The notes beneath the pieces are model-generated. The model saw only the letters and a list, made by a program, of their open reading frames with translations, ran no database searches and was not told the origin of the DNA. Source: Magnolia sinica (lineage: Eukaryota; Streptophyta; Magnoliopsida; Magnoliales; Magnoliaceae). Taken from it: a stretch of DNA of 64,000 nucleotides. Of the stretch, positions 1,952-57,311 are shown piece by piece; the first letter of the stretch is position 1; each line of letters begins with the position of its first letter. Made by a program: the position numbers and the translations under genes. Location of the stretch: contig NC_080583.1 in assembly GCF_029962835.1 (NCBI RefSeq), positions 69,053,158 to 69,117,157 on the forward strand. The letters run 5' to 3'.

Positions 1952-1959
1952 CTTATCAC

Positions 1960-2602: not shown

Positions 2603-2610
2603 CTTATCAC

Positions 2611-4273: not shown

Positions 4274-7200
4274 TGTCAGACCCTTAACCGAGTATCTGTT
4301 TTGTTCTGTTAGGTCCCACGGTCCTACCGGTCGAATTCCGGTGACCCATGACCTATAGGTAGCATTTACGATCATCCTTAAATCTCATCTCATAAACCCA
4401 ACCCAGATCGACCCAAAACCTATACCTTTGCAACCGCGTCGATGCCACAGTTCCAACACTATGTCTCATGTGCAAATCCAATGTGTACATCAAAAGTTGT
4501 AGGCCGCGCTTCATATGGACCCTTGATCGTGTTTGTGGGACCCACCTAGCATGTGCACGTTCCCCCCTACAAGCATGACATCATCAAATTCCATAATTAC
4601 CTAGCTAGCCTAGCTAACCTAGCCCACGTATAGCCTACCTAGCTATCATGAGAATTCTCTTCTCAAGGCAATGATCACTCCCTCTCTCCCATGTGCCATC
4701 ATTGTTTCTCTTCTCAAAGCTCATCATGAGCTTACAAACCAACATTCTCTTGCTACATCTCTCCCTCTCTCTCATTTCTCTTCATTTTCCTTTCTTCCTT
4801 TCCATTTGCAAGAGAAAAAAACATTCACCATTCCAACAAATTTCAGCCCTCTTTTCTCTCATTTCTCCCTAAATCTAACCCCTAAAACTCAATCTCAACC
4901 GTTGATCTCTATCCCTTGGAGCTAGAGGAGCTTGGTGATAGGAGAAAGTAGTTCTTGTGAGGTGGGTGAGCATTTAGAATAATTTTCTTCTTTTCTTTCT
5001 TAGATCTTCCTTTTCTCATTCAAGAGAGCTTGTGGGGCCCATCAAAAGATGGTGAAGGTCCTCCATGTCTTCATGGGTGTGGCCAATGGCCCACCTTATG
5101 CATGCATGTTCCATAGATGGGGTCATTCTCCATGGACCCCATCATGGCAATTTTTCTTTGATAGATAGCTTATGGGGTCATCTAGACCCTAGATCCTTGG
5201 TGGGGATGGCATCCCCATCTTAGATTTGATTTTTTGATCCATGCATGTGTAAGATCTAGCTTGTAATATGTTATGATGAATGTTGTGAAGTTATGATGAT
5301 GGAAAGGGCCTCAATCATGGCGGAGCCCCCTCTCCTATGGCCGGATTTCCTTTCCTCTTTTTCTATTATTGCCTTCTGATGTGTGTGGCCCACTTAGGGA
5401 CCCTAGGATGTCTAGACCATCCAGCAAGGTGGGACGCCCCTTGCTGTCCATTTCCTGGACATTGGCGTCCCACTTGCTGCCTATTTGATGCATGCAAGGG
5501 GTTTTGAGAAGGGGTTTTGGTCTGGATGTTTGTGGGGCCCACTAAGGTGGACCATATCACCATTTTTGTGGAGTATTTCCCCTTTATTCAGCAGTTATGG
5601 ACTGATGTGTCCAGTTATATCTTGTTGTCCAAAAAATTTCTGGATTATTTTCTAGGTTGTCTTTCATTGATCTTGGCATGGAAGATTGGACTTATTGTGG
5701 GCATGTTTTATCCCTGTTAAGAGATGATTCTTGGAGGTGTGGACCCCACCTTGATGTATGTTAAATCCCACCTCTAACTGTTCATAAATGGATAGCTAAT
5801 GGAGCACGCCCAAGGGCGGGACAGTCTAAAATTCTGGACCATCCAGCCACACTTATTGGAGGGAAAACATACGTATTAGCTGATTTTGGGGATGATAGGT
5901 CAATTTTGTGGACCCCACCTTGTTGTACTTTGATAGGAGGGTTGGCCGGCTGTCCTCCCCTTGTGGCCCACCTTGATGTAGTATTTTATCCAAGCCGTCC
6001 TCCCTGGTGTGGCCCACTGAGATGTGGTTCAGCCCTGATGGGACGTCCACCAGTGGGGTCCACCTTGGGGTTTATTGTGGCTGGCCGTCCAAGCCTCTTG
6101 GGATGCCCAGGCCCACCTTGGACGTCCAGGATTTTTTTGGGTCACCTTTATTCTTGTGTCATATCCTCACCTTTCATCTATTGGGACCCACTATGATAAC
6201 TAAGGGCCATTATAAAATTTATTTTCTCCCAAAATTACTATTTGTTGGACCTCGGAGGGCCTAGGGAGCTGGGTGGGCTGAATGTCCAACAAGGGCCTTA
6301 AAATGTTGTAGATATAACTGGAAAATTTTTTGTTGTGAGGCCCACCAGATTGGGGTGTTGTATACTCCTTGAGTAGATATTTTTCCCAGAGATTTCTTTT
6401 TGGCTTAATTAGTGCCTTGTTAAGCCAACTTTTAGTTGATTGCTTGGGCCCAAAAAATTGGACCAGATTTCTTAGGATGTCTAGCAGGCCCAGATGGGTT
6501 GGGACGTCCAGCCTTAGCCTAATCCTTGTGCATGGACTGTTTTCACATTGTGCTGGAATTGGTGGGCCGAATTGTATGTGTGATTGGGTCCTTAATTGCC
6601 CACCTATTTTACCCAGATTTGGGTTGATATTGAAGGGCCCATTTGACCCAACTTGGATATGTTTTTGCCTATGTGCTTGGGGTTGCGTGCTACTTACTAG
6701 GTCCAACATAATGCATGAATTCGGTGGCCATTGTTCTTGGGCCATAGTTTGCCTTTTTGGGCCCATGATGTTGTGTGAGGGCTTTGGGCCATTTTCTTAG
6801 GGCCCATTATGTGATATGATATATATGTCTTGCTCCCATTTTATTTTTAAGGTAGTACTTGGGCCTTGGGCCTTGCTTTAGGTAGAATCTTTGTTGGGCC
6901 GCCTTCTAGGGGACAATAGTGGTTAAATGTCCCAATTGTGGACCCCTCTAGGCCTATTTGTTAGGCTCATTCTCATCTACTGGTGGTTGAATGTCCACCT
7001 TAGACCCTTTATTAGGCTCATTCTTATCATTTTAGGCCCATAGTATTGTTCTCTTAGTCTTTATGGGCTACCCCAAATTGTTGAGCCCCCACTAGTAGTT
7101 GTGCTCTTTTTATTCCACATAAAATTGTCTAAGTACCTAGATCCTACCTTGTTGAAAGGAGAGTATAATTTCAACGCATGATGTACTTAGTTATTTTTCA

Positions 7201-14579: not shown

Positions 14580-15046
14580 TGTTAGACCCTTAACCGAGTA
14601 TTTGTTTTGTTCCGTTAGGTCTCGAGGTCCTACTAGTCGAATTCTGACGACCTACAACCTATAGTTAGCATTTGCGATCATATTTAAATCTCATCCTATA
14701 AACCTGACCCGGATCGACCCGAAACCTATACCTTTGCAACCGCATCGGTGCCGCGGTTCCAACACCGCATCTCATGTGTAAATCCGATGTCTACATCAAA
14801 AGTTGTAGGCCGCGCTTCATTTGGACCCTTGATCGTGTTTGTGGGACCCACCTAGCATGTGCACGTTCCCCCTAAGAGCATGACATCATCTATTCCATAA
14901 TTACCTAGCTGGCCTAGGCCACCTATAGCTTACCTAGCTATCACGAGAATTCTCTTCTCAAGGCAATGATCACTCCCTCTCTCCCATGTGCCATCATTGT
15001 TTCTCTTCTCAAAGCTCATCATGAGCTTACAAACCATCATTCTCTT

Positions 15047-15096
<50 letters not shown>

Positions 15097-16668
15097 CTCT
15101 TCATTTTCCTTTCTTCCTCTCCATTTGCAAGAGAGAAAAACGTCCACCATTACAACAAATTCCAGCCCTCTTTTCTCTCATTTCCCCCTAAATATAAGCC
15201 CTAAAACTCAATCTCAACCATTGATCTCTATCCCTTGGAGCTAGAGGAGCTTGGTGATAGGAGAAAGTAGGAGTTCTTATGAGGTGGGTGAGCATTTAAA
15301 ATAGTTTTCAGCTTTTCTTTCTTAGATCTTCCTTTTCTCATTCAAGAGAGCTTGTGGGGCCCATCAAAAGATGGTGGAGGTGCCCCATGTCTCCATGGGT
15401 GTGGCCAATGGCCCACCTTATGCATGCATGTTCCATAGATGGGGTCATTCTCCATGGAGCCCATCATGGCAATTTTTCATTGATCTATAGCTTATGGGGT
15501 CATCTAGACCCTAGATCCTTGGTGGCGATGGCATCCCCACCTTAGATTTGATTTTTTGATCCATGCATGTGTAAGATTTAGCTTGTAATATGTTATGATG
15601 AATGTTGTGAGGTTGTAATGATGAAGAGCGCCTCAATACTGGCGGAGCCCCCTTTCCTATGGCGGGATTTCCTTTCCCCTTTTTCAATTATTGCCTTCTG
15701 ATGTGTGTGGCCCACTTAATGACCCTAGGACGTCCAGACCATCCAGCAAGGTGGGACGCCCCTGTTGTCCATTTCCTGGACATTGGCATCCCACTTGCTA
15801 TCTATTTGATGCATGCTAGGGGTTTTGAGAAGGGGTTTTGGTCTAGATGTTTGTGGGGCCCACTAAGGTGGACCATATCACCATTTTTGTGGAGTATTTC
15901 CCCTTTATTTAGCAGTTATGGACTGATGTGTACAGTTATATCTTGCTGTCCAAAAAATTTCTAGACTGTTTTCTAGGTTGTTTTTCATTGATCTTGGCAT
16001 GGAAGATTGGACTTATTGTGGGCATGTTTTATCCCTGTTAAGAGATGATTCTTGGAGGTGTGGACCCCACCTTGATGTATGTTAAATCCCACCTCCAACT
16101 GTCCATAAATGGACAGCCAATGGAGCACGCCCAAGGGCGGGACGGTCCAAAATTCTGGACCATCCAGCCACGCTTATTGGAGGGAAAACATATGTATTAG
16201 CTGATTTTGGGGATGATAGGTCAATTTTGTGGACCCCACCTTGCTGTACTTTGATAGGAGCATGATCACCGCCCCTTTTTCCCTCTTTTGGTTGGGCCTG
16301 GGCCCACTCCATTGGATGTTCCATGCAAGGACAACAATATTTTTTCCTGCAGAATTTTATTTCTGGACCTTGCTATCCATTTTTGTAACTCATGTTTGTG
16401 TTTGATGGTGGCCTCCCCCTTCACCCATCTTGTGGCCCACCTTGTGGGGACCCACCTCAGGTGTTTGTTGGCCACCTGATTCACCGAATTTTGGGCCATT
16501 TTGGAGCTGAGCTAGTGACCCAACTACTGGACATCCAGCTGGGCTGGCGTCCTGCAATGGGCTTGCCAGCTGTCCTCCCCTTGTGGCCCACTATGAAGTG
16601 GTTCAGTCCCTGGTTGGATGTCCACCAGTGGGGCCCACCTTGGGGTTTATTGTGGCTGGCAGTCCAGG
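14580..16668 (+). repeat. Tekay-like 3' LTR, truncated
   Basis: It starts TGTTAGACCCTTAACC and is collinear with the 5' LTR from 4274 onward. About 300 bases at 16260-16560 have no counterpart in the 5' LTR, after which the match resumes (CTGTCCTCCCCTTGTGGCCC). The LTR stops at 16668 where a minus-strand LTR of another family begins. About half of the expected LTR length is missing. Confidence 0.82.
15048..15092. repeat. (CT)n microsatellite in 3' LTR
   Basis: About 22 uninterrupted CT units. The same place in the 5' LTR (near 4755) has only a short CT-rich stretch, so the tract expanded after the element inserted. Confidence 0.9.
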
Positions 16669-32832: not shown

Positions 32833-34528
32833 GAAAACTAAATTTGGTAAAAAAAATGTTAAATTTATTTAGTTAAAAGAGTTTTGGATGCGGTTGAAAC
32901 TTGGTCTGACCCCTCATCCAAGTGGGACACACATAATGAGTGGGTTGGATATGTGAATCACATTTAAGCAGGCCCAATATATGATTATGACTATTTTAAG
33001 GAAACCTTTCTCTACTACATTTAAATGAGTTACTCGTTACCTTTACTAGAGTAAACTCTGTGGGGTTCACCATTTTTTATTTATTTTATCCACTCCATTC
33101 ATCCATGTTAACAGATAATTTGAAGTCTAAAGAACAAAAAGGAAGCATATCCAAAGCTCAAGTGGACCACACCATAGGAAATAGTGTGATTGAACCTCTA
33201 CCATTTAAAATTTCTTAAAGGCCATAGAAGTTTTAGATCAAGCTGATGTTTGTGTTTTCTATTCATTTATATATTTTTGATATTATGAACAACCTTTAAC
33301 TATTTTTGGACAATCTGATCAGTCCGGACATGAAGAGTAAATAACTTCAGATGTTAAAATCAAAATTCACTCAAATTGTTGATCAATCTTGTTTGCCCAA
33401 TATATTTCTCATATGTAATATGATCGAGGCGAGTAACTAGTCAAATTGAGGGTAATGATCAGTAAAATAGAGTGAATGGACCAGACATGTAAAATGGGCC
33501 CATCATGATGTGTGTCGAACATCAACTCCGTGCATTTGATTTCTCCCCTTTAGCTTATGAGATATCTCAAAAATCATCCGTATACGAAACTCAAGTGTTA
33601 ATTACCATCTAAAACTATGTGAAGACATCTAAAAAAATATAAACAGTACAATATTAGATGTCATACCATTTTGGGGCCATAAACGTTTTGGATCAAGCTG
33701 ATTTTTGTTTTTTCCCTTCATCTGGCCCTGTATGACCTAATCAACATATTGGATGTCAAATAAACAGTACAGTAAGCCTTAGGAAGATTTTAATGATGGA
33801 TATCCAATTACTATTGTTTCATGTGGTGTGGTGCACCTAAGATATCTGTGGTAGGGTCCACTACAGATTTTTATCTGCCTCACTCTTTGGCTCATGACGT
33901 AAAATGATATTTCAAAATGGATGGACGGTGTGGATATAACAAATACATCATAGTGGGGCAGACAAAACTTTGTGGATGTTGGTCGGTGCTCTATGGGTCC
34001 CACCATGATGTATGTGTTTCATCCAAGTGGGACATATAATGAATGGGTTGGATCTATGAACCACATCTAGGTGGGCCCAATAAATGATTATTTTTAAGGT
34101 CGTGGCCCACCATGAAATGGTGCATCTGATTGATGGGGCAGATCCAAAGTTCAAGTGGACCCACCATAAAAAAGAGTGGGATAGTGACACCCACTATTGA
34201 AACCTTCTTAAGGCCCGCCACGATGTTTATTTGAGATCCAACCTGTTTATAAGTTAATACAGACATGGATGTAGTTGAAAATTGGTCTGACCCCTCATCC
34301 AAGTGGGACACACGTAATGATTGTGTTGGATATGTAAATCACATTTAGGCAGACCCAATATATGATTATGAATGTTCTAAGGAAACCCCTCCATTATATT
34401 ATGTGGTGTGACCCACATTTAGGATGATGTGTTATATATCCTTGCCGCCCCTATGTTTCTCCAACCCATTTTTGGACCGGGTAATAATGTAAAAATGTTT
34501 TAATTTTTAAAAAATTTTGTCAGTAAAA

Positions 34529-34529
<1 letters not shown>

Positions 34530-34586
<57 letters not shown>
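34530..34586. repeat. (GT)n microsatellite
   Basis: About 28 uninterrupted GT units. Confidence 0.95.
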
Positions 34587-34588
<2 letters not shown>

Positions 34589-36387
34589 TTTTTATAACAT
34601 ATGAATGGAAATTTTTTTTTATATAATTAAAAGGTAATATTTAAATGATTTGTAATATGACATGAAAAAGAATTTTGAAAAGTTTAGAAATTTTAACTAT
34701 GTTTAAGAAAAATTTGGAGAACAAAATAATGCTTTTGAAGAAAAAAAATAACATTTTGAAAATTTTGAGAAAGAATTAAAAATATGAGAAAATTTTTGAG
34801 ATTTTGAAAATAAAAATTCAAAATTTGTATTTTAAATATTTTTGAGATATTTTATAATAAAAATGATATTTAGTTAAAAGAGATAAAAAATATACATTTT
34901 GAAAAAAAAATGTTAAATTTATTTGTGAAAAATAAAATTACTAACTTATCAGGCACATCCACTAATTGAACCTTTAATCATTTTTGGACAATATAATCAG
35001 TTCAAATTGAAGAGTAAATAACTTCAGATGTTTAAATCAAATTTCACTAAAATTGTTGATCAATCTTGTATGCCCAATATCTTTCTCATATGTAGCCTGA
35101 TTGAGGCGAGTAACTAGTCAAATTGAGAGTATTGATTAGTAAAATAGAGTGAATGGACCATACATGTAAAATGGGCCAAATATTCTAGTTAAAATTGTGA
35201 CCCAACTTACTGACCTCGTGAGAACCTAAGAATTGATGTTACTAAGTTTTGTGGGGCCCATCATGATGTGTGTCGAACATCAACACCGTGGATTTGATGT
35301 GTCCCCTTTAGGTTATGAGATATCTCAAAAATCATCGGTAAACGAAACTCAAGTGGGCCATACCATTTAAAACTATGTGAAGGCATCCTAAAAAATATAA
35401 AAGCACTTGGTGCGGCCCACATGAGTTTTGGATGCGATTGAAACTTGATCTGACCCCTCATCCAAGTGGGACACACATAATGAGTGGGTTAGACATGTGA
35501 ATCACATTTAGGCAGGCCTAATATATGATTATGAATGTTTTAAGGAAACCTTTCTCCACTACATTTAAGTGAGTTACTCGTTACCTTTACAAATTGTGAA
35601 AAAATTGATCAAAATTGTGAAAAAATTGACAAATTATAAAAAAATTATATTTTTTTAAAAAGAAAACTAGTTTTTACATTTTGACAAGAAAAATTGAAAA
35701 GTTATATAACAAAAGTAAGATTAAAAAATTGATATTTTGAAAAAGAAATTTATGCTGGGCCCACTTCAGATTTTTATAGGCTTCATTTTTTAGCCTATGT
35801 AATAAAACTATATGTTAAAATGGATGGATGGAGTGGATAAAATGATTAAATCATGGTGGGCCCCATGGGATTGACTCAGTACGCTTGGGAACGGATTGGC
35901 TACTCCCCTGACACCAGCCAATGGCTGGTGGTCGATGCTCTGTGGCCCCCACCATGATGTATGTGTTTCAGCCATGCCGTCCATATATTTTTATAGATAA
36001 TTTTACAATATGAGACCAAAAATGAGATATATCCAAATCTCAAGTGGACCACATTACACGAAATTGTGTTGAATGAGCGTCGACCATTAAAAACATTTTG
36101 GTAGCCATAAAAGTTTTGGATCAAGCTGATTTTTGTTTTTTCCCTTCATCTGGTCCTGTATGACTAAATCAACAGATTGGATGTCAAATAAACAGTATAG
36201 TAGGCCTTAGGAGGATTTTAATGGTGGATATCCAATCACTATCGTTCTCATCTGGTGTGGACCACTTGAGATTTATATCCCTCTAATTTTTGCCATAAAG
36301 CTCTAAAATGATCTTTAAAAATGGATGAACGGAATGGATGAAACACATACATCATTGAACTACCCATGGAACACCGTCCATGGTCTC

Positions 36388-40246: not shown

Positions 40247-43200
40247 CATACCCTTAACCTATAACCTAAACCTTTTCTCAAATTCCAAAGCCTATAACTA
40301 CAACCTAAACCTATAACCTAAACCAATAACCTAAACTCAATTCCCTAAACTTTAACCTACAACCTAACCTAAACCTATACTTATTCCCTAAACCTATTCT
40401 CAAATCCCAAAACCTATAACCTAAACCATACCCTAAACTTATAACCTATAACCTAAACTCAATTCCCTAAACCTTAACTTATAACCTAACCTAAACCTAT
40501 ACTTATAACCTGAACCTATTGTCAAATCCCAAAACCTACAACCTATAACCTATAACCTGAACTTATAACCTAACTTATACCTATACTTATAACCTAAACC
40601 TATTCTCAAATCCCAAAACCTATAACTATAACATAAACCTTAACCAAAAACCTATAACCTAACATAAACCAAAACCTATAACCTTAACCTAAACCTAAAG
40701 CTATAACCCTAACCTTAACATATAACCTAAACCTAAAACTAAACCTAAACCTAAACCTATTCTCAAATCCCTAAACCTAAACCTAAACCTAAACCTAAAC
40801 CTATAACCTAAACCTATACTCAAATCCCTAAACCTAAACCTAAACCTTAATGTATTCTCAAATCCCTAAACATAAACCTACACCTAATCCTAATCTAAAC
40901 TCCCTAACTTAAACCTAAACCTAAACTAGAAAACCCAAACCTAAACCTGATCCTGAACCCGAACCCGACTTCATAAACCTATACATATACCTAAACCTAT
41001 TCTCAATTCCCTAAACCTATATCTTATAACCTAAACCTAAACTTGTAACCTATAACCTAAACCTAAATGTATTCTCAAATCCCTAAACCTCAACCTACAC
41101 CTAATCCTAATCTCAACTGTCTAACCTAAACCTAAACTAAAACTTGAAAACCAAAACCTAAACCCGATCCCGAACCGAACCTGATTTCCTAAACCTAAAC
41201 CTTAACCTATTCTCAATTCCCTAAACCTATATCTTATAACCTAAACCTTAGCCTAAACCTAAACCTAAACCTGTAACCAATAACCTAAATATAAACCTAA
41301 AACCTAAATGCATTCCCAAAACCCTAAACCTATACCTACACTTAATCCTAATCTCAACTCCCTAACCAAAACCTAAACCTAGACTTGAAAACCAAAACCT
41401 AAACCCAATCCCGAACATGAACCCGATTTCCTAAACCTAAACCATAACCTATTCTCAATTCCCTAAACCTATATCTTATAACCTAAACCTAAGCCTAAAC
41501 CTAAACCTTAACCTAAACCTAAACCTAAACCTGTAACCTATAACCTAAACCTAAACCTAAAACCAAAATGTATTCTTAAATCTTTAAACCTAAACCTACA
41601 CCTAATTCTAATCTCAACTCCCTAACCTAAACCTAAACCTAAACCAAAACTTGAAAACCAAAACCTAAACCCAATCTCAAAACTGAGCCCGATTTCCTAA
41701 ACCTAAACCTTAACCTATTCTCAATTCCCTAAACCTATAGCTTATAACCTAAACCTAAACCTAAACCTAGACTAAAACCTAAACCTATAACATATAACCT
41801 AAACCTAAACCTAAACCAAAACCTAATCCTATAACATATAACTTAAACCTAAACCTAAACCTATACCTTAACCTAAACTTAAACCTAAACCTATAACCTA
41901 TAACCTAAACATAAACGTAAAACCTAAATGTATTCTCAAATCCCTAAACCTAAACCTACACCTAATCCTAATCTCAACTCCCTAACCTAAACCTAAACCT
42001 AAACTTGAAAACTCAAACCTAAACCCGATCCTGAATCCGATTTCCTAAACCTAAACCTTAATGTATTCTCAAATCCCTAAACCTAAACCTACACCTGATC
42101 CTAATCTCAACTTCCTAAACTAAACCTAAACCTAAACTTGAAAACCAAAACCTAAACTCGATCCCGAACCCGAACCCGATTTCCTAAACCTAAACCTTAA
42201 CCTATTCTCAATTCCCTAAACCTATAGCTTATAACCTAAACCTAAACCTAAACCTTAACCTAAACCTAAACCTAAACCTAAACCAATAACCTATAACCTA
42301 AACCTAAACCTAAACCCTAAATGCATTCTCAAATCCCTAAACCTAAACCTACACCTAATCCTGATCTCAACTCCCTAACCTAAACCTAAACCTAAACCTA
42401 AACTTGAAAACCAAAACCAAAACCCGATCCTGAACCAAACCCGATTTCCTAAACCTAAACCTTAACCTATTCTCAATTCCCTAAACCTATATCTTATAGC
42501 CTAAACCTAAGCCAAAAGCTAAACCTTAACCTAAACCTAAACCTAAACCTATAACCTATAACCTAAACCTAAACCTAAAACCTAAATGTATTCTCAAATC
42601 CCTAAACCTAAACCTACACCTAATCCTAATCTCAACTCCCTAACCTAAACCTAAACCTAAACTTGGAAACCAAAACCTAAACCCGATCCCGAACCCAAAC
42701 ACGATTTCCTAAACCTAAACCTTAACATATTCTCAACTCCCTAAACCTATAGCTTATAAACTAAACCTAAACCTAAACCTGTAACCTATAACCTAAACCT
42801 AAACCTAAAACCTAAATATATTCTCAAATCCCTAAACCTAAACCTACACCTAATCCTAATCTCAACTCCCTAACCTAAACCTAAACCTAAACTTGAAAAC
42901 TCAAACCTAAACCTGACCCCGAACCCGAACCCGATTTCCTAAACCTAAACCTTAAAGTATTCTCAAATCCCTAAACCTAAAACTACACCTGATCTTAATC
43001 TCAACTTCCTAAACTAAACCTAAACCTAGACTTGAAAACCAAAACCTAAACCCGATCCCGAACCCGAACCCGATTTCCTAAACCTAAACCTTAACCTATT
43101 CTCAATTCCCTAAACCTATAGCTTATAACCTAAACCTAAACCTAAACCTTAACCTAAACCTAAACCTAAACCTAAACCAATAACCTATAATCTAAACCTA

Positions 43201-44967
43201 AACCTAAAGCCTAAATGTATTCTCAAATCCCTAAACCTAAACCTACACCTAATCCTAATCTCAACTCCCTAACCTAAACCTAAACCTAAACCTAAACTTG
43301 AAAACCAAAACCTAAACCCGATCCCGAACCGAACCCGATTTCCTAAACCTAAACCTTAACCTATTCTCAATTCCCTAAACCTATATCTTATAACCTAAAC
43401 CTAAGTCAAAAGCTAAACCTTAACCTAAACCTGTAACCTATAACCTAAACCTTAACGGAAAGCCTAAATGTATTCTCAAATCCCTAAACCTAAACCTACA
43501 CCTAATCCTAATCTCAACTCCCTAACCTAAACCTAAACCTAAACTTGGAAACCAAAACCTAAACCCGATCCTGAACCCAAACACGATTTCCTAAACCTAA
43601 ACCTTAACATATTCTCAACTCCCTAAACTATAGCTTATAACCTAAACCTAAACCTAAACCTGTAACCTATAACCTAAACCTAAACCTAAAACCTAAATGT
43701 ATTCTCAAATCCCTAAACCTATACCTACACTTAATCCTAATCTCAACTCCCTAACCTAAACCTAAACTTAGACTTGAAAAACAAAACTTAAACCCGATCC
43801 CAAACATGAACCCAATTTCCTAAACCTAAACCTTAACCAATTCTCAATTCCCTAAACCTATATCTTATAACCTAAACCTAAGCCTAAACCTAAACCTTAA
43901 CCTAAATCTAAACCTAAACCTATAACCTATAACCTAAACCTAAACCTAAAACCTAAATGCATTCTCAAATCCCTAAACCTAAACCTACACCTAATCCTAA
44001 TCTCAACTTCCTAACCTAAACCTAAACCTAAACTTGAAAACCAAAACCTAAACCCAATCCCGAAACCGAGCCCGATTTCCTAAACCTAAACCTTAACCTA
44101 TTCTCAATTCCCTAAACCTATAGCTTATAACCTAAACCTAAACCTATAACATATAACCTAAACCTAAACCTAAACCTATACCTATACTTTAACCTAAACT
44201 TAAACCTAAACCTATAACCTATAACCTAAACATAAACGTATAACCTAAATGTATTCTCAAATGCCTAAATCTAAACCTACACCTAATCCTAATCTCAACT
44301 CCCTAACCTAAACCTAAACCTAAACTTGAAAACTCAAACCTAAACCCGATCCCGAACCCGAACCCGATTTCCAAAACCTAAACCTTAATGTATTCTCAAT
44401 TCCCTAAACCTAAGCCTACACCTGATCCTAATCTCAACTTCCTAACCTAAACTAGAAAACCAAAGCATAAACCCGATCCCGAACCAGAACTCGATTTCCT
44501 AAACCTAAACCTTAACCTATTCTCAATTCCCTAAACCTGTAGCTTATAACCTAAACCTAAAGCTAAACCTAAACCTTAACCTAAACCTAAACCAATAACC
44601 TATAACCTAAACCTAAAGCTAAAACCTAAATGTATTCTTAAATTCCTAAACCTAAACCTACACCTAATCCTGTCTCAACTCCCTAACCTAAACCTAAACC
44701 TAAACTCGATCCCGAACCGAACCCAATTTCCTAAACCTAAACCTTAACCTATTCTCAATTCCCTAAACCTATATCTAATAACCTAAACCTAAGCCTAAAC
44801 CTAAACCTTAACCTAAACCTAAACCTAAACCTGTAACCTATAACCTAAACCTAAACCTAAAACCTAAATGTATTCTCAAATCCCTAAACCTAAACATACA
44901 CCTCATCCTAATCTCAACTCCCTAACCTAAACCTAAACCTAAACTTGGAAACCAAAACCTAAACCCG
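40247..44967. repeat. Telomere-like hexamer satellite, left block
   Basis: About 4.7 kb of CCTAAA (TTTAGG) hexamers mixed with CCCTAAA, CCTATAA and CCTTAA variants. On top of this is a longer unit, marked by CTACACCTAATCCTAATCTC, CCCGATCCCGAACC, TTCTCAATTCCCTAAACC and AACCTAAATGTATTCTC. The landmark TTCTCAAATCC recurs at about 40855, 41070, 41311, 41571, 41931, 42063, 42325, 42588 and so on, giving units mostly of 220-290 bp, with a few of about 130 and one of about 360. The hexamer differs from the usual plant telomere heptamer. No genes. Confidence 0.9.
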
Positions 44968-44972
44968 ATCCC

Positions 44973-46704
44973 TATTGAGGGTCAAATATTATATATTAGA
45001 CCCCATTTATTAGCTGGATTTACGAGCATGATACTGTTTAACGCTTTCTTTTTAATCATGTTGTGATGCAAGGTGAATCTACGAGCCTAGACCGAAAAGG
45101 GTACTTAAAGCATGGATTTAATGCTCTGATGACACCAGAGCATGGGACGGACTCCAGAGAACCAAGATCAATAGAATTACACACCAAGGACCTGGAAAAA
45201 TTGAGAAACTGAAGCTCAAACGGCCTGAAAGTCAGCCAGAATGCAAGATCACTGGGTTTCCACCATCTGTTCAGCTTGAAACTTTATACATGGCTCGAGG
45301 ACCAAAAACTAACAGTACATGTCAAATTTCAGCCATTAGATCCTTCTAAAAGTGGCCCAACGGACAGATCAGGCCATAAATCAGTGATTTGGGGCCCGCC
45401 TGGTATCTGGAAATGCGTCAATTTTGCACTCAACGCCTTAAATGAGGCGAAAAAATGGATGGATGGCACAGATTTCTCTCGAACATCATGATGAACCCAT
45501 ATGTACATTGCATGTACATAGGGTACATGTGCACGAGAAGTGCACCGGACGGAGAGTCCGGTCAAACAACGAACTAACCCGAAGTTTTTTTTTTTTTTTA
45601 AAAAGGAAACAGCGTCCAACGCTGTTTCGACGGATGATCGCTGTGGGCCCCACTCGCTCCCCAGAATGCTGATCCTGACCATACACTCGAACTCCATGGT
45701 CCATATTACCAAGCCCTAGGTGACAAAATTCCAAGAAACAGTACAGATAGGTTCCTGGCAGTTCAAACGGAAGATGGATGGTGGACTGAACCGGCTTGTG
45801 GGCCACACCAAAATCAAACTGAAACTGTCCCTTCCCGAACGGTTCTTCGTCCTGAATCCAATGGACAGCTTGGATTTCTCAAAACAACAGTGAAGTGGGC
45901 CACACCATCGTCACAGCGTCAATGACGCTACTCTGTTTCGTGGTCCGGAAGAACCGGACGTTCATAGGGAACTCTTTCATTTTCCTTATTTTCTTTTTCT
46001 TTTTCTTATTCTCTTGCTGTTGTTTTTTGTTTCTTTCTTTCTCTCATGACTCTTAAGGTTTTTAGCCTAATCATGTTTGGCTAAAACCTCTTAGCTAGGG
46101 CTAAGAGGTGAAGCTTGTAACATGATGGGAGACTTTACCTTATGCCGTTAATTTAATTTATATTGAACTACCTTGATTGCGGTTGAATTAAGGGAATACT
46201 TTTAGTTTTTAATAGTTTGTTGTGACTGAAATTACAATAGATTTGCAATGGCTTTGAGTATTTCTTTATCCTTTTTATGTTTATGACGTCAGGAAGCCCT
46301 GTTGTTCGCCATCGTCTCATGGGCATGGTCGGATGACGGTACCCTTCATAACCTTCATGCATTGTTGATTGGTTGGTAATTAATGTAATTCTGTTGTTTA
46401 CTTTGTCTCCTGGGCATGGTTTGGTAATGGAATCCATTCTAATTCATATGCCTTTCACTTCTTGACAACTATATCAAAGGAAGTTCAGTTTAAATTTCAT
46501 AATTCTTGATGCAGGAATAAGATCTCCCTGATCTCTACAAGTGGATCCTCTGAATCCCTAGTTTCCCTTCCCTGAATTGTTTAAAGTTTTAGACAATTAT
46601 TCCTTAAATTCTATTTGATTTAGATTACATCTTAGTCTAAGTTCTAGTTCTACTTAGTTTCAGATAACGTACAGGTATCAGTTCCTTGGGATTCGGTCTG
46701 GACA
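44973..46704 (+). repeat. Athila LTR, left arm
   Basis: It begins TATTGAGGGTCAAATATT (TG mutated to TA) and ends GGATTCGGTCTGGACA at 46704, 1732 bases. The direction U3 to U5 is inferred from the start, shared with the Athila LTR at 27425, and from the U5-like CCTTGGGATTCGGTCTGG phrase near the end. The next base already belongs to pol sequence, with no PBS. Confidence 0.85.
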
Positions 46705-48942
46705 ATATTTAAATAAATAAGGATCATCCCAGAAAAAGTTGCGCACCTCGGTGAAGAATTTCTTCTTATCTTGCGTAGTCCATTGTGTCGGTATGGTACC
46801 TGTAGCAAGATAATTAGCAATATCAGCGAACCAAGGTGAATGGGAGACTCTGAACAGTTGTTCATCAGGGAACATGTCGTTGATATGGGTCGTCTCAAGG
46901 GAATCAGAGGTATTAAGGCGAGAAAGGTGATCGGCCACAACATTTTTTACTCCCTTTTTATCTTTAATTTCCAATCAAATTCTTGGAGTAAAAGGATCCA
47001 TCGTATCAGGCGGGGCTTAGAATCATTCTTAGAAAGAAGATATTTCAATGCTGCATGATCTGTATAAATAATGATCTTGGATCCAATCAGGTAGGACCTA
47101 AATTTGTCCAAGGCGAACACTACGGTTAAGAGTTCTTTTTCCGTAGTTAAGTAGTTCACTTGGGCTGGATTTAAAGTCCTACTCGCGTAATGGATGACGT
47201 AGGGTCTCTTGTCTTTTCTCCGGCCTAGAACCTCTCCAAGAGCATAATCAGAAGCATCGCACATAAGCTCAAAAGGAAGGCTCCAGTCGGGTGGCTGCAT
47301 GATAGGTGCAGTGGTTAACGTGCCCTTAAGCTTGGTGAAAGCATCCTGGCATTGCTCAGTCTACTTATACGAAACATCCTTTTGAAGAAGACTACATAAA
47401 GGACGAGAGAGGAGACTAAAGTCCTTTATAAATCGCCTGTAAAATCCTGCGTGTCCTAAGAAGGATCGCACGTCTCTGATGTTCTTGGGTGGAGGTAGGT
47501 TAGAGATAAGATCGATTTTTGCCTTATCTACCTCGATTCCCTTGGACAAGATGATATGCCCAAGGACAATTCCCTTCTAAACCATGAAATGGCACTTCTC
47601 CCAAGTAAGTACCAAGTTCCTTTCTTCACATCTTTTCAGCACACATTTAAGACTTTCCAAGCACTTGCTGAAAGATGGACCGTAAACAGAGAAATCGTCC
47701 ATGAAGACCTTTAGATATTGCCCCACCATATCAGAAAAGATACTAAGCATACATCGCTGAAAGGTGGCAGGGGCATTACATAGTCCGAATGGCATCCTTC
47801 GGTAGGCAAAGGTGCCGTAGGGACATGTAAATGTGGTCTTTTCCTGGTCTTCAGGGGCTATCTCTATCTGGTTGTAGCCCGAATACCTGTCAAGGAAACT
47901 GTAATAGGAATGACCAGCTAACCTTTCCAGGATCTGATCAATGAATGGTAAAGGAAAGTGGTCTTTCCTCGTAACGGTATTCAACTTTCTGTAGTCAATG
48001 CACATTCTCCAACCAGTAGTGACTCTAGTTGGCACGAGTTCATTATTAGCATTGGCTACGATGGTGATTCCGGACTTCTTAGGGACCACTTGAGTTGGAC
48101 TCACCCATTGACTATCAGATATAGCGTATATGATACCCACGTCCAATAGTTTAAGAACCTCGGCCTTAACCACTTCCTTCATGTTTGGATTTAGTCTACG
48201 TTGCGGTTGCCGAGCGGTTTTTGCATTATCCTTAAGATATATGCGGTGAGTACAAATCAAGGGATCGATTCCCTTGAGGTCCGCTATCGTCCATCCCAGG
48301 GCTCCTTTATGCTCAATGAGAGTAGATATGAGCATACTCTCCTGATCTTTCTCCAGGTGGGCAGAGATCACCACCGAGTATGTCTCATCTTGACCTAAAT
48401 AGGCATATTTTAAATCAGAGGGCAAAGGTTTTAGGTCAAGCTTCGACGGCTTGAGGTTAGATGGTAGAGGCACTACATCGGTTTGTGGCAATTCTTCAAA
48501 TTGTGGCCTCCACCAGTTAACTTCAAGTACCGGTGCAGTATCAAGCAAGGCACACATCTCCCTAATCATGTCATCATCAAAATCATGGGAGTGGGCCAGG
48601 CATGTCTCTAGATGGTCGGAGGATAAGGTCAGAGGTGTCGTATCTTCCACGAAAGAGTCAATCATGTTAATGTCGTGAAAATCGTCATCATCCTCTGAGT
48701 TGCTGCGGTTATTGAAAAAGATGTTTGACTCCAATGTCAAATTTCCAAAAGACATAGTCATAACACCATTCCTGCAACTGATAATTGCATTTGACGTGGC
48801 AAGGAATGGGCGACCAAGAATGACGGGAATCTAAGTGCTCATGTTATTGATGGGTTCGGTGTCCAGGATGATTAAATCTACAGGGTAGTAAAATCTATCG
48901 ACCTAGACTAACACATCCTCAATTATCCCTCTTGGTACACGA
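46705..48942 (-). pseudogene. Athila-type protease end, RT, RNase H and connection
   Basis: Minus strand. The protease C-terminal part (RGIIEDVLV, PVILGRPFLAT) lies at 48935-48790; the catalytic DSG would be upstream and is absent. RT runs through 48761-47577: WRMCIDYRKLNTVTRKDHFP, FLDRYSGYNQI, MPFGLCNAPATFQRCM and the catalytic FMDDFSVYG near 47695. It ends WEKCHFMV with a stop, and the thumb DVRSFLGHAGFYRRF is at 47440-47480. RNase H is at 47300-46970 with [17 protein letters not shown] and [15 protein letters not shown]. The linker to integrase (HSPWFADIANYLATG) ends at KKFFTEVRNFFWDDPYLFKY, where it meets the left LTR end at 46704. Only a few stops, so this is one of the best-kept pol cores in the window. 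Athila motifs (FSDMV, RCEERNLVL) are clear. Confidence 0.9.
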
Positions 48943-49161
48943 TTCTCGCCTTAATACCTCTGATTCCCTTGAGACGGCCCATATCAATGACATGTTCCCT
49001 GATGAACAACTGTTCAGAGTCTCCCATTCACCTTGGTTCGCTGATATTGCTAATTATCTTGCTACAGGTGCCATACCGACACAATGGACTGCGCAAGATA
49101 AGAAGAAATTCTTCACCGAGGTGCGCAATTTTTCTAGGATGATCCTTATTTATTTAAATAT
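48943..49161 (+). pseudogene. Inverted copy of the RNase H-integrase linker
   Basis: Encodes on the plus strand SRLNTSDSLETAHINDMFP, HSPWFADIANYLATGAIP and KKFFTEVRNF, the same segment found on the minus strand at 46924-46705, with a few substitutions. It joins at 49161/49162 to the right LTR end exactly where the left copy joins its LTR, and at 48942/48943 to the protease end of the core in the opposite direction. Confidence 0.88.
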
Positions 49162-50893
49162 TGCCCAGACCGAATCCCAAGGAACTGATACCTGTACGTT
49201 ATCTGAAACTAAATAGAACTAGAACTTAGACTAAGATGTAATCTAAATCAAATAGAATTTAAGGAATAATTGTCTAAAACTTTAAACAATTCAGGGAAGG
49301 GAAACTAGGGATTCAGAGGATCCACTTGTAGAGATCAGGGAGATCTTATGTCTGCATCAAGAATTATGAAATTTAAACTGAACTTCATTTGATATAGTTG
49401 TCAAGAAGTGAAAGGTATATGAATTAGAATGGATTCCATCACCAAACCATGCCCAGGAGACAAAGCAAACAACAGAATTACATTAATTACCAACCAATCA
49501 ACAATGCATGAAGGTTATGAAGGGTACCGTCATCCGACCATGCCCATGAGACGATGGCGAACAACAGGACTTCCTGACGTCATAAACATAAAAAGGAGAA
49601 AGAAATACTCAAAGCCATTGCAAATCTATTGTAATTTCAGTCACAACAAACCATTAAAAACTAAAAGTATTCCCTTAATTCAACCGCAATCAAGGTAGTT
49701 CAATATAAATTAAATCAACGGCATAAGGTAAAGTCTCCCATCATGTTACAAGCTTCACCTCTTAGCCCTAGCTAAGAGGTTTTAGCCAAACATGATTAGG
49801 TTAAAAACCTTAGGAGTCATGAGAGAAAGAAAGAAACAAAAAATAACAGCAAGAGAATAAGAAAAAGAAAAAGAAAATAAGGAAAATGAAAGAGTTCCCT
49901 TTGAATGTCTGGTTCTTCCGGACCACGAAACAGAGTAACGTCATTAACGCTGTGACGATGGTGGGGCCCACTTCACTGTTGTTTTGAGAAATCCAAGCCG
50001 TCCATTGGATTCAGGACGAAGAACCGTTCGGGAAGGGATAGTTTCAGTTTGATTTTGGTGTGGCCCACAAGCCGGTTCAATCCACCATCCATCTTCCGTT
50101 TGAACTGCCAGGAACCCATCCGTACTGTTTCTTGGAATTTTGTCACCTAGGGCTTGGTAATATGGACCATGGAGTTCGAGTGTATGGTTAGGATCAGCAT
50201 TCTGGGGAGTGAGTGGGGCCCACAGCGATCATCCGTCGAAACAGCGTCGGACGCTATTTCCATTTTTTTTTAAAAAACGAACTTCGGGTTAGTCCATTGT
50301 TTGACCAGACTCTCCGTCCGGTGCACTTCTTGTGCACATGTACCCTATGTACATGCAATGTACATATGGGTTCATCGTGATGTTCGAGAGAAATCTGTGC
50401 CGTCCATCCATTTTTTTGCCTCATTTAAGGCGTTGAGTCCAAAATTGACGCATTTCCAGATACCAGGCGGGCCCCAAATCACTGATTTATGGCCTGATCT
50501 GTCCGTTGGGTCACTTCTAGAAAGATCCAATGACTGAAATTTGACATGTACGGTTAGTTTTTGGTCCTCGAGTCATGTATAAAGTTTCAAGCTGAACAGA
50601 TGGTGGAAACCTAGTGATCTTGCATTCTAGCTGACTTTCAGGCCATTTGAGCTTCAGTTTCTCGATTTTTTCGGGTCCCTGGTGTGTAATTCTATCGATC
50701 TTGGTTCTCTGGAGTCTGTCCCATGCTCTGGTGTCATCAGAGCGTTAAATCCATGCTTTAAGCACCCTTTTCGGCCCAGGCTCGTAGATTCGCCTTACAT
50801 CACAACATGATTAAAAATAGAGCGTTAAACAATATCATGCTCGTAAATCCAGCTAATAAATGGGGTCTAATATACAATATTTGACCCTCAACA
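49162..50893 (-). repeat. Athila LTR, right arm
   Basis: 1732 bases, same length as the left LTR. On the minus strand it starts TGTTGAGGGTCAAATATTG at 50893 and ends GGTCTGGGCA at 49162. It is in the right orientation for a 5' LTR of the minus-strand pol core, but the PBS, gag and first part of protease are replaced by the inverted linker. Confidence 0.87.
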
Positions 50894-53800
50894 ATCCCGA
50901 ACCTGAACCCGATTTCCTAAACCTAAACCTTAACCTATTCTCAATTCCCTAAACCTATAGCTTATAACCTTAACCTAAACCTAAACCTAAACCTAAACCT
51001 GTAATCCATAACCTAAACCTAAACCTAAAACCTAAATGTAGCCTAGAATCCCTAAACCTATACCTACACTTAATCCTAATCTCAACTCCCTAACCTAAAC
51101 ATAAACCTATACTTGAAAAACAAAACCTAAACCCGATCCCGAACATGAACCCGATTTCCTAAACCTAAACCTTAACCTATTCTCAATTCCCTCAACCTAT
51201 ATCTTATAACCTAAACCTAAGCCTAAACCTAAACCTTAACCTAAACCTAAACTTGTAACCTATAACCTAAACCAAAACCTAAAACCTAAATGTATTCTTA
51301 AATCCCTAAACCTAAACCTACACCTAATCCTAATCTCAACTCCCTAACCTAAACCTAAACCTAAACTTGAAAACCAAAACCTAAACCCAATACCGAACCG
51401 AACCCGATTTCCTAAACCTAAACCTTAACTTATTCTCAATTCCCTAAACCTATATCTTATAACCTAAACCAAAGCCTAAACCTAAACCTTAACTTAAACC
51501 TAAACCTAAACCTGTAACCTATAAGCTAAACCTAAACCTAAAATCTAAATGTACTCTCAAATTCCTAAACCTAAACCTACACTTAATCCTAATGTCAACT
51601 CCCTAACCTAAACCTAAACCTAAACTTGAAAACCAAAACCTAAACCCGATCCCGAACCGAACCCGATTTCCTAAACCTAAACCTTAACCTATTCTCAATT
51701 CCCTAAACCATTAGCTTATAACCTAAACCTAAGCCTAAACCTAAACCTTAACCTAAACCTAAACCTAAACCTGGAACCTATAAGCTAAACCTAAACCTAA
51801 AACCTAAATGTATTCTCAAATCCCTAAACCTAAACCTACACCTAATCCTAATCTCAACTCCCTAACCTAGACCTAAACCTAAACTTGGAAACCAAAACGT
51901 AAACCCGATCCCGAACCCGAACCCGATTTCCTAAACCTAAACCTTAACCTATTCTCAATTCCCTAAACTTATAGCTTATAACCTTAACCTAAACCTAAAC
52001 CTAAACCTATACCTGTAACCGATAACCTAAACCTAAACCTAAAACCTAAATGTATTCTCAAATCCCTAAACCTATACCTACACTTAATCCTAATCTCAAC
52101 TCCCTAACCTAAACCTAAACCTAGACTTGAAAATCAAAACCTAAACCCGATCCCGAACATGAACCCGAATTCCTAAACCTAAACCTTAACCTATTCTTAA
52201 TCCCCTCAACCTATATCTTGTAACCTAAACCTAAGCCTAAACCTAAACCTTAACCTAAACCTGTAACCTATAACCTAAAACCTAAATGTATTCTCAAATC
52301 CTTAAACCTAAACCTACACCAAATCCAATCTCAGCTCCCTAACCTAAACTAAAACCTAAACTTGAAAACCAAACCCTAAACCCAATCCCGAAACCGAACC
52401 CGATTTCCTATACCTAAACCTTAACCTATTCTCAATTCCCTAAACCTATAGCTTATAACCTAAACCTAAACCTATAACATATAACCTAAACCTAAACGTA
52501 TACCTTAACCTAAACCTATAACCTATAACCTAAATATACATGTAAAATCTAAAAGTATTCTCAAATTCCTAAACCTAAACCTACACCTAATCCTAATCTC
52601 AACTCCCTAACCTAAACCTAAACCTAAACTTGAAAACTCAAACCTAAACCCGATCCCGAACCCGAACACGATTTCCTAAACCTAAACCTTAATGTATTCT
52701 CAAATCCCTAGACCTAAACCTACACCTGATCCTAATCTCAGCTCCCTAACCTAAACCTAAACCTAAACTTGAAAATTCAAACCTAAACCCGATCCCGAAC
52801 CCGAACCCGATTTCCTAAATCTAATCCTTAACCTATTCTCAATTCCCTAAACCTATAGCTTATAACCTAAACCTTAACCTAAACCAAAACCAATAACCTA
52901 TAACCTATACCTAAATCTAAAACCAAAATGTATTCTCAAATCCCTAAACCTAAACCTACACTAAATCCTAATCTCAACTCCCTAACCTAAACCTAAACCT
53001 AAACTTGAAAACAAAAACCTAAACCCGATCCCGAACACGAACCTAATTTCCTAAACCTAAACCATAACCTATTCTTAATTCCCTAAACCTAAACCTTACC
53101 CTAAACATAAACCTAAACCTCTAACCTATAACCTAAACCTAAACCTAAAACCTAAATGTATTCTCAAATCCTTAAACATAAACCTACACCTAATCTTAAT
53201 CTCAACTCCCTAACCTAAACCTAAACTTAAACTTGAAAACCCAAACCTAAACCCAATCCCGAACCGAACCTGATTTCCTAAACCTAAACCTTAACCTATT
53301 CTCAATTCCCTAAACCTATATCTTATAACCTAAACCTAAGCCTAAACCTAAACCTTAACCTAAACCTAAACCTAAACCTATAACCTATAACCTAAACCAA
53401 AACCTAAAACATAAATGTATTCTTAAATCCCTAAACCTAAACCTACACCTAATCCTAATCTCAACTCCCAAACCTAAACCTAAACCTAAACTTGGAAACC
53501 AAAACCAAAACCCGATCCCGAACCGAACCCGATTTCCTAAAGCTAAACCTTAACCTATTCTCAATTCCCTAAACATATATCTTATAACCTAAACCTAAGC
53601 CTAAACCTCAACCTTAACCTAAACCTAAACCTAAACCTATAACATATAACCTAAACCTATACCTAAAACCTAATGTATTCTCAAATCCCTAAACCTAAAC
53701 CTACACCTAATCCTAATCTCAACTCACGAACCTAAACCTAAACCTAAACTGGAAAACCAAAACCTAAACCCAATCTCGGACCTGAACCCGATTTTCTAAA

Positions 53801-56425
53801 CCTAAACATTAACCTATTCTCAATTCCGTAAACCTATACCTTATAACCTAAGCATAAGCATAAACCTAAACCTAAACCTAAACCTAAACCTGTAACCTAT
53901 AACCTAAACCTAAACTTAAAAGCTAAATGTATTCTCAAATCCCTAAACCTATACCTATACTTAATCTTAATCTCAACTCCCTAACCTAAACCTAAACGTA
54001 AACTTGAAAACCAAAACCTAAACCCGATCCCGAACCTGAACCCGATTTCCTAAACCTAAACCTTAACCTATTCTCAATTCCCTAAACCTATTGCTTATAA
54101 CCTAAACCTATACCTTAACCTAATCCTAAACCTAAACCTATAACCTATAACCTAAACATAAACCTAAAACCTAAATGTATTCTCAAATCCCTAAACCTAA
54201 ACCTACACCTAATCCTAATCTCAACTCCCTAACCTAAACCTAAACCTAAACTTGAAAACTCAAACCTAAACCCAATCCCTAACCTAATTTTCTAAACCTA
54301 AACCTTAATGTATTCTCAAATCCCTAAACCTAAACCTAGACCTAATCCTCAACTCCCTAAACTAAACCTAAACCTAAACTTGAAAATCCAAACTTAAACC
54401 CAAACCCGATTTCTTAAACCTAAACCTTAACCTATTCTCAATTCCCTAAACCTATAGCTTATAACCTAAACCTAAACCTAAACCTAAACTAATAACCTAT
54501 AACCTAAACCTAAATGTATTCTCAAATCCCTAAACCTAAACCTACACCTAATCCTAATCTCAACTCCCTAACCTAAACCTAAACCTAAACTTGAAAACCC
54601 AAACCTAAACCCGATCTCAAACCCGAACCCGATTTCCTAAACCTAAACCTTAACCTATTCTCAATTCCCTAAACCTATATTTTATAACCTAAACCTAAAC
54701 CTATATAACATATACCCTAAGCGTAAACCTAAACCTTAATGTATTCTCAAAACCCTAAACCTACACCTACACTTAATCCTAATCTAAACTCCCTAACCTA
54801 AACCTAAACCTAAACTTGAAAACCCAAACCTAAACCCGATCTCGAACCTGAACCCGATTTCCTAAACCTAAACCTATACCTATTCTCAATTCCCTAAACC
54901 TATATCTTATAACCTAAACCTAAACCTAAACCAATAACCTTTAACCTATAACCTAAACCTAAACCTAAACCTTAACCTAAACTTGTAACCTATAACCTTA
55001 ACCTAAACCTAAACCTAAACCTGTAACCTATAAACTAAACCTAAACCTAAAACCTAAATGTATTCTCAAATCCTTAAACCTAAACCTACACTTAATCCTA
55101 ATCTCAACTCCCTAACCTAAACCTAAACTTAAAGTTGAAAACCCAAACCTAAACCCAATCCCAAACCGAACCCGACTTCCTAAACCTAAACCTTAACCTA
55201 TTCTCAATTCCCTAAACCTATATCTTATAACCTAAACCTAAGCCTCAAGCTAAACCTTAACCTAAACCTAAACCTAAACCTGTAAACCTTTAACCTAAAC
55301 CTAAACCTAAAACCTAAATGTATTCTCAAATCCCTAAACATATACCTACACCTAATCCTAATCTCAACTCCCTAACCTAAACCTAAATCAAAACTTAAAA
55401 ACCAAAACCTAAACCCAATCCCGAACCCGAACCCGATTTGCTAAACCTAAACCTAAACCTTTACCTATTCTCAATTCTCTAAACCTATAGCTTATAACCT
55501 AAACCTAAATCTTAACCTATTCTCAATTCTCTAAACCTATAGCTTATAACCTAAACCTAAACCTATACCTAAAACCTAATGTATTCTCAAATCCCTAAAC
55601 CTAAAACTACACCTAATCCTAATCTCAACTCCCTAACCTAAACCTAAACCTAAACTTGAAAACCAAAACCTATACCTGACCCCGAACCCGAACCCAATTT
55701 CCTAAACCTAAACCTTAACGTATTCTCAATTCCCTAAACCTATAGCTTATAACCTAAACCTAAGCCTAAACTTAAACCATAACCTAAACCTAAACCTAAA
55801 CCTATAACCTATAAACTAAACCTAATCCTAAAACCTAAATGTATTCTCAAATCCCTAAACTTAGACCTACACTTAATCCTAATCTCAACTCCCTAACCTA
55901 AACCTAAACCTAAACTTGAAAACCAAAACCTAAACCTGATCCCAAACTTGAACCCGATTTCCTGAACCTAAACCTTAACCTATTCTCAATTCCCTAAACC
56001 TATTGCTTATAACCTAAACTGAAACCTAAACCTATACCTTAACCTAAACCTATAACCTATAATAAACTTAAAACTTTAATGTATTCTCAAATCCCCAAAC
56101 CTAAACCTACACCTAATCCTATTCTCAACTCCCTAACCCTAACCTAAACCTTAACTTGAAAACTCAAACCTAAACCCGATCCCGAACCCGAACCCGATTT
56201 CCTAAACCTAAACCTTAATGTATTCTCAAATCCTTAAACCTAAACCTACACCTAATCCTAATCTCAACGACCTAACCTAAACTTAAACCTAAACTTGAAA
56301 ACCCAAACCTAAACTCGATCCCGAACAAGAACCCGATTTCCTAAACCTAAACCTTAACCTATTCTCAATTCCCTAAACCTATAACTTATACCTAAACCTA
56401 AACCAATAACCTATAACCTAAACCT
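50894..56425. repeat. Telomere-like hexamer satellite, right block
   Basis: Continuation of the array split by the palindromic insertion, about 5.5 kb, same landmarks and orientation as the left block and same unit length of about 250 bases. It ends at about 56425 in AACCTATTCTTAG and gives way to T-rich sequence. No genes. Confidence 0.9.
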
Positions 56426-56844
56426 ATTCTTAGTTTTATTTTTTTTAAAAAAAGTGCCTACTTTTTTGGAAGAAGTTTATGCAATTCTTCATGATTCTGA
56501 ATTATAATGTTTTGTTGGTTTAATATTTTTTTTCAAATGAAAGACACAGAGAAAATTGTTGGTGATTTTTTTTTCTTTTTTTATTTATGATGTTAAACTT
56601 ATATGTATTTATGCGTAGATGAATGTAATGTGGATAAGATTGTTTGTGTTTGGATGGATGTAGTTTATGTTTGGATGAATGTAGTTTAGGTTGGATTTAC
56701 ATAGTTTGGGTTTAGATGGATATGAATGTGAATATGATGAAATAGATTATATAACAGGTGTATATCAGGAAGATTACGATGAAATATATTGTAACAGGTG
56801 TATATTGATCTTCTCAAATCTGAAAATGTGCTTTGAAGGCTCAT
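56426..56844. other. AT-rich non-coding spacer
   Basis: Short phrases such as GTTTGGATGAATGTAGTTTA recur around 56640-56710. Nothing coding. Confidence 0.5.
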
Positions 56845-57311
56845 AAGGGACGGTCCATGACAGTCCTTTTTAAGGACGGTCTGTGGCCGTCCTTTGAAGG
56901 CTCATAAGAGAGTCCATGACAGTCCTTTTGAAGGACGGTCCATGACCGTCCTTTTAAAGGACGGTTTATAGCCGTCCTTTCAAGGGCCATAAGAAACAGT
57001 CCATGACAGTCCTTTTTAAGGACGGTCCATGGCTGTCCTTTAAAGGCTCATAAGAGACGGTCTATGACAGTCCTTTTTAAGGACAGTCCATGACCGTCCT
57101 TTTAAAGGATGGTCGATGGCCGTCCTTTGAAGGCTCATAAGAGACGGTCCATGACAGTCCTTTTTTCGTCAATAAGAACGACGGTTTTTGACCGTCCTTT
57201 AAGTAATACGACACATCAAAATTTGACGACCCATGCGACGGTCCATGACCGTCCTTTTTGGTCATTTGAGATGGTTTTGGACCGTCCTTTTTTCACAGTT
57301 TTGGCGTAGTG
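56845..57311. mobile_element. CACTA-like terminus B (right)
   Basis: About twelve AAGGACGGTCCATGACCGTCC-like units, some preceded by ATAAGAGACGG as in the left array, then TTTTTTCACAGTTTTGGCGTAGTG ending at 57311 (the last 14 bases read inward as CACTACGCCAAAAC). The triplet after it is TAG. Confidence 0.75.

Follow-up and report, generated by a model that had tools for sequence, protein, structure and literature searches.

The locus described here raises the question of how a retrotransposon came to lie in a genome with its two long terminal repeats (LTRs) facing each other, between exact copies of a 5-bp sequence. It occupies positions 44973–50893 of the window, by which we mean the whole 64,000-nt stretch of Magnolia sinica DNA that was analyzed. 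An initial annotation had described a mirror-image unit at this place, consisting of two full-length 1732-bp LTRs with U3 at both outer ends, and had proposed aligning one side with the other. In this alignment, 44975–46924 and the reverse complement of 48943–50891 were 96.0% identical over 1951 columns, with 75 mismatches and three gap openings. The mirror image was thereby borne out: two arms of about 1.95 kb each face each other, with U3, the start of the LTR, outermost on both sides. The left outer end of the unit reads TATTGAGGG, and the right outer end, reverse-complemented, reads TGTTGAGGG. The LTR starts with TG in 27 of the 32 rows listed for the unit and related loci (some loci appearing twice), with TA in four (two of which are the unit's left end), and with GG in one.

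We compared the unit with normal relatives. The LTR of copy C2 (L012, L013) measures 2132 bp (L012:994–3125); the copy has a flush TTACA on both sides and a primer binding site (PBS), putatively for tRNA-Asp, beginning 6 nt past the LTR end. With C2 as reference, the arms stop about 57 bp before the LTR end, and each consists of antisense pol over its innermost ~229 bp; contrary to the initial annotation, the LTRs are not full-length. In unit coordinates, positions 1–1723 correspond to the LTR in the plus direction (compared with C2 and C9, the middle being diverged in several relatives), positions 1711–3970 are a single contiguous stretch of minus-direction pol (2261 columns, 94.0% identity, L010), and plus-direction pol linker occupies positions 3971 to about 4209, with the inverted LTR after it.

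In the window, the LTR part of the left arm (44973–46695, plus strand) comprises U3, R, and most of U5, and is followed by an antisense fragment of the RNase H–integrase linker of pol (46696–46924, minus strand) that is common to the right arm. The loop (46925–48942, minus strand) consists of about 2.0 kb of antisense pol, extending from upstream of the reverse transcriptase (RT) domain to RNase H and collinear with the normal copy C9 (L010); its start falls inside the gag-protease frame of C2. The RT and RNase H frames are interrupted, and the ORFs bearing the RT domain (PF00078) and the RNase H domain (PF17917) lie at 47577–48761 and 46947–47300, respectively, both on the minus strand. The right arm begins with a sense linker fragment (48943–49170, plus strand) and continues into the inverted LTR part (49171–50893, minus strand). 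Each arm is thus U3, R, and most of U5 running into one and the same antisense piece of pol. Alignment to C2 revealed no match to its gag, PBS, integrase core, or U5 end anywhere in the unit.

In its domain order, LTR length, and PBS, the source element appears to fit the Athila clade, and we call it 'Athila-like'. The order RT–RNase H–integrase was found, with RVT_1 and RNase H present in both the unit and L013 and the integrase core downstream in L009. In Diaspora and Calypso, a PBS that pairs with tRNA-Asp starts 5 bp past the LTR (PMC1142308). The element shares with the Athila clade (Athila, Calypso, and Diaspora) this domain order, a long LTR, and a PBS a few bp after the LTR, whereas the unit differs in its inverted, U5-truncated LTRs and inverted pol. 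Athila differs from Tat in lacking an archaeal-type RNase H (PMC6317226), and none was reported in the scanned ORF pieces, which represent part of pol. In a search for an envelope-like or Athila ORF-1 domain, the two short ORFs downstream of integrase yielded no Pfam family; because this domain is present in 16% of Athila elements (PMC6317226), it is not a defining requirement.

The unit sits inside a CCTAAA-rich satellite array, which extends over 40291–44965 on its left and 50916–56426 on its right. As initially annotated, exact ATCCC sequences flank it, flush with both ends (44968–44972 and 50894–50898), and represent a putative 5-bp target duplication. An empty site was reconstructed by joining 300 bp of each flank at a single ATCCC. 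This sequence matched 51630–52212 over 583 bp with zero gaps and 95.2% identity, whereas its next-best match had 91.1% identity and 13 gap positions, confirming that removal of the unit rebuilds satellite sequence. When the flanks were searched individually, the left had two best matches with equal scores (51630–51912 and 42408–42690), and the right had its best match at 51908–52207. Since the best matches of the two flanks (51630–51912 and 51908–52207) are contiguous, the flanks were most likely adjacent at one time. Chance recurrence of ATCCC had been named as a test of the integration reading. There are 65 copies of the motif in 10,270 bp of array sequence (0.63% of positions), and the chance that random 5-mers, one from each side of the array, are equal is p = 0.029, so the match is weak on its own; only together with flush LTR ends and in-phase flanks is the duplication good evidence, and in that combination it is strong.

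We then focused on the two junctions. At junction 1 (46685–46695), the LTR sequence CTTGGGATTCG and the antisense linker sequence CTTAGGATTTG have 9 of 11 bases in common, and in both arms the LTR sequence is kept through the final G, with the linker thereafter. A 100-bp query over this junction had full-length matches at the two arms only, among the 40 scored of 2245 candidates. No special hairpin was found at junction 1 (fold z +1.10). At junction 2 (48942/48943), where the antisense pol meets the sense linker, the transition is nearly blunt, with little homology; among the 40 scored of 2353 candidates in the 1.84-Gb genome, the query matched in full at the unit only, and the other 39 places matched one half. 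The presence of the same abnormal junction in both arms, and its absence elsewhere among the scored candidates, means that, before integration, one arm served as template for the other or both were copied from a single chimeric molecule. As neither junction had another copy among the scored candidates, the unit looks like a single event, not a family.

We located matches to the U3 start with up to two mismatches, of which there were 6933 on the plus strand and 7010 on the minus strand, and looked among the listed places, which are not random samples, for pairs of facing U3 starts no more than 20 kb apart. A first list of 40 places contained two facing pairs, the unit and C16:11254958/11257126; a second list of 40 contained one, C14:64025167/64042849; and a third list of 40, sharing 33 places with the first, contained the unit only. 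No facing pair was seen by eye among 100 listed of the 13,943 places, all on C1, and the listed matches to inner LTR pieces included none within 20 kb besides the unit. The C14 pair was set aside as two separate elements: its left LTR follows a polypurine tract and is complete to the end, and its right U3 runs into gag in its own direction. At the latter place (L047:8952 down to 4756; C14, about 64.04 Mb), a 923-bp U3 leads almost directly into gag, without R, U5, or PBS.

The C16 locus (C16:11250479–11257638; L021 from 7480, L009 to 5139) holds an element whose truncation lies within RT or upstream of it. A polypurine tract is followed by an LTR and then by the first 13 bases of the PBS in damaged form, 12 of them remaining; after this PBS stub comes about 1.08 kb of inverted U3, whose end coincides exactly with the LTR start. 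Over its outer 546 bp, the inverted U3 is 97.4% like the LTR of the same locus, the inner part reaches 93–94% identity to other copies, and the whole inverted arm is collinear with the U3 of five other copies at 78–80%. ATATT is present at both ends of the locus, but the left end is internal and falls within a run of T, which makes it doubtful that this is a true duplication. The succession of polypurine tract, LTR, and PBS has the look of a plus strand with failed transfer, although a tandem element could also produce it. We regard C16 as a related inverted-U3 fold-back and a partial case. The initial annotation had suggested looking for other insertions with inverted LTRs; apart from this partial one, the listed U3-start places held no further full case.

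Taken together, these findings indicate that the unit probably arose in one event, in which integrase inserted an aberrant fold-back cDNA derived from an Athila-like Ty3/gypsy retrotransposon. Given the structure and flanks observed, the junctions suggest four steps of DNA synthesis. Plus-strand DNA would have been primed normally at the polypurine tract, giving the exact 5′ end of U3, and would have copied U3, R, and most of U5. Its 3′ end, still short of the LTR end, would then have slipped at the imperfect homology of junction 1 onto a plus-sense pol template, most simply a second packaged RNA, to yield about 2.25 kb of antisense pol; a plus-sense template is needed because it is antisense pol that extends U5. 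Next, the strand's own 5′ part, or a sister copy of that part, would have become the template, and synthesis would have continued through linker, U5, R, and U3 to run-off at the 5′ end of U3. The sense linker and antisense LTR complement the strand's own start and end exactly at U3, as they would upon run-off. Second-strand synthesis would finally have turned this strand into linear double-stranded DNA terminating in U3 on both sides. From the flush 5-bp repeat, we infer a fifth step, in which integrase joined both U3 ends to satellite DNA 5 bp apart. Concerted joining with two identical ends has been carried out in vitro with U5-end DNAs, and 26 concerted products with a 5-bp duplication were obtained for Rev-A (PMC3790719).

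This course of events accounts for the flush LTR starts with ATCCC and the in-phase, ungapped 583-bp empty site, and for a junction 1 that lies in 9/11 homology, is common to both arms, and is found in full length only there among the scored candidates. The flush 5-bp duplication of C2, a normal family copy, and the inverted-U3 turn of C16 argue for it as well, as does the sister relationship of the arms over LTR positions 1000–1723 (see below). Counting against it are the slight homology at junction 2 and the chance probability of the 5-bp match, as well as three features of the arms: LTR positions 1–690 are not grouped, the U3 gradient is somewhat steeper than in C2 and C9 taken together, and 30 of 72 differing sites have both states among relatives. 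The earlier proposal that a palindromic cDNA with two U3 ends was accepted by integrase is the best supported by termini, flanks, junctions, and the C2 duplication, but the molecule was not whole LTRs back to back; it appears to have been a product of template switching and fold-back that carried inverted pol.

We next considered the history of the arms. They have diverged by 4.0%, about as much as the direct LTRs of C2 (4.7%) and those of C9 (4.2%, measured over part of the LTR). When nine LTRs of relatives were set beside them, 42 of the 72 differing LTR sites carried a change confined to a single arm (23 in the right, 19 in the left), and 27 of these 42 changes were G>A or C>T; the near-normal divergence and this bias fit decay after insertion. 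At the other 30 sites, both states were present among the relatives. With eight nearer relatives, 21 sites were unique per arm, 29 had both states, and 10 had arm-only shared states. In LTR positions 1000–1723, the arms were sisters with an ultrafast bootstrap of 95 in a tree of 23 sequences, and were 98.1% identical to each other (next best, 97.7%). By contrast, in positions 1–690 they were 93.3% identical, no closer than to several other copies, and were not grouped in a tree of 14 sequences. Self-copying is the simplest reading of these data, but the U3 of one arm could come from another molecule. A different cDNA, for example one made from the other packaged RNA, would then have supplied the U3 of the second arm, if not that whole arm, and the arms would have been unlike at birth. 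This intermolecular origin is a minor possibility. Arm positions 1–690 resemble unrelated copies, arm differences are concentrated in U3 (6.65% versus 2.54% in the rest), and at C16 the inner part of the inverted U3 differs from that locus's own LTR. However, grouping of the arms over positions 1–690 is not rejected when forced (AU p 0.30), and a like gradient is seen in the direct-LTR pairs C2 (5.60% versus 3.31%) and C9 (5.31% versus 3.24%), that of the arms being somewhat steeper than these two jointly (p = 0.059 and 0.076 at two cut points). In a same-strand LTR pair on C11 (61019493 and 61034719; L004 and L002), the pattern is reversed, with differences of 1.57% in U3 and 4.78% in the rest, possibly through gene conversion.

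The remaining alternatives concern events other than fold-back copying. Two Athila-like insertions in opposite orientation in neighboring satellite units could have been joined by deletion or recombination. The family is abundant, as the U3-start matches show, ATCCC is found repeatedly in the array, and the phase could survive a recombination of satellite units with each other; yet two insertions would not supply the common abnormal junction, absent elsewhere among the scored candidates, and the best satellite matches of the flanks are contiguous, making this origin quite improbable. The initial annotation had rejected it on the ground that two insertions would not leave a matching duplication; we agree with the rejection, but the identical abnormal junction is the better basis for it. 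The nearly blunt junction 2 would suit ordinary cDNAs that were broken and end-joined before integration, a route we hold to be very improbable, because an identical junction 1 in both arms requires copying rather than joining. A false fold-back in assembly or reads predicts nearly identical arms, which is at odds with the 75 mismatches and their decay-like bias, as well as with the flush 5-bp repeat and in-phase flanks; such an artefact is extremely improbable. Long inverted terminal repeats and a 5-bp duplication might also suggest a mobile family with inverted ends, either DIRS-like or a foldback DNA transposon. We give this next to no credence: neither junction was found twice among the scored candidates (40 each), pol is collinear with direct-LTR relatives, and a Pfam scan of the unit's four ORFs detected no recombinase or transposase domain. 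Autointegration was rejected by reasoning, as it predicts whole ends and not an identical cut junction twice.

Aberrant cDNA has been studied previously in retroviruses and Ty1. Compared with a normal LTR insertion, the unit has the flush 5-bp duplication but lacks direct LTRs with one U3 and one U5 end. Inverted 2-LTR circles of Ty1 and retroviruses arise by autointegration (PMC4751563); their LTRs are likewise inverted through an aberrant fate of cDNA, but the circles have whole ends, whereas the unit is linear, integrated, and carries the truncated junction twice. Among HIV-1 proviruses, one inversion plus deletion and one inversion have been described, and aberrant proviruses and asymmetric LTRs were attributed to misaligned or switched templates in reverse transcription (PMC9278108). 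The unit resembles these in being an inversion that would stem from template errors, but it is old and fixed in the assembly, and two U3 ends or palindromic arms are not described in the accessible part of that report. DIRS-1 is also a retroelement with inverted LTRs, but it uses a tyrosine recombinase and its circles are thought to integrate (PMC5633606), whereas the unit has a flush 5-bp repeat, no tyrosine recombinase in its four scanned ORFs, and no second copy among the scored candidates. Head-to-head VANDAL21 DNA transposons (PMC12312487) are a separate matter. In the mostly non-subscription literature consulted, we recognized no description of a genomic U3/U3 or palindromic retroelement insertion, and we do not claim that none has been reported.

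The finding is real and best explained by aberrant reverse transcription followed by ordinary integration; the unit is unusual and instructive, not a new kind of system. If the explanation is correct, the unit is natural evidence that a plant retrotransposon integrase can insert DNA ending in U3 on both sides and lacking a U5 terminus, and that a plus strand can move to a plus-sense template and then turn back to copy itself. More speculatively, failed plus-strand transfer and turn-back copying may be recurrent in this family, with integrase accepting U3-ended fold-backs and the inverted copies, with their facing promoters, acting as sources of hairpin RNA that silence the family; we consider this unlikely. 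If it were recurrent, the path would be a source of genomic inverted repeats, and these can give rise to hairpin RNA and to small RNAs directed at the parent family. Mu killer in maize provides an analogy. With 13,943 U3-start matches, the rate of this path would be measurable in the genome.

Some further observations were made on LTR history and on the rest of the window. In a comparison of U3 and R–U5 that took in L024–L031 and the arms, L024 was 97% like the arms in R–U5 and 72% in U3. L002–L006 are near the arms in U3 and about 83–86% in the inner LTR. These patterns suggest that U3 and R–U5 may have separate histories, through recombination between copies. Elsewhere in the window, 4274–5939 and 14580–16260 form a direct repeat pair of ~1.7 kb whose copies are 91% identical and probably represent the LTRs of a further element of about 12 kb. 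Several interspersed direct repeats of 122–210 bp with 89–94% identity are present in 32879–36260, and a short tandem array of GGACGGTCCATGACCGTCC-like self-complementary units lies at 56828–57165.
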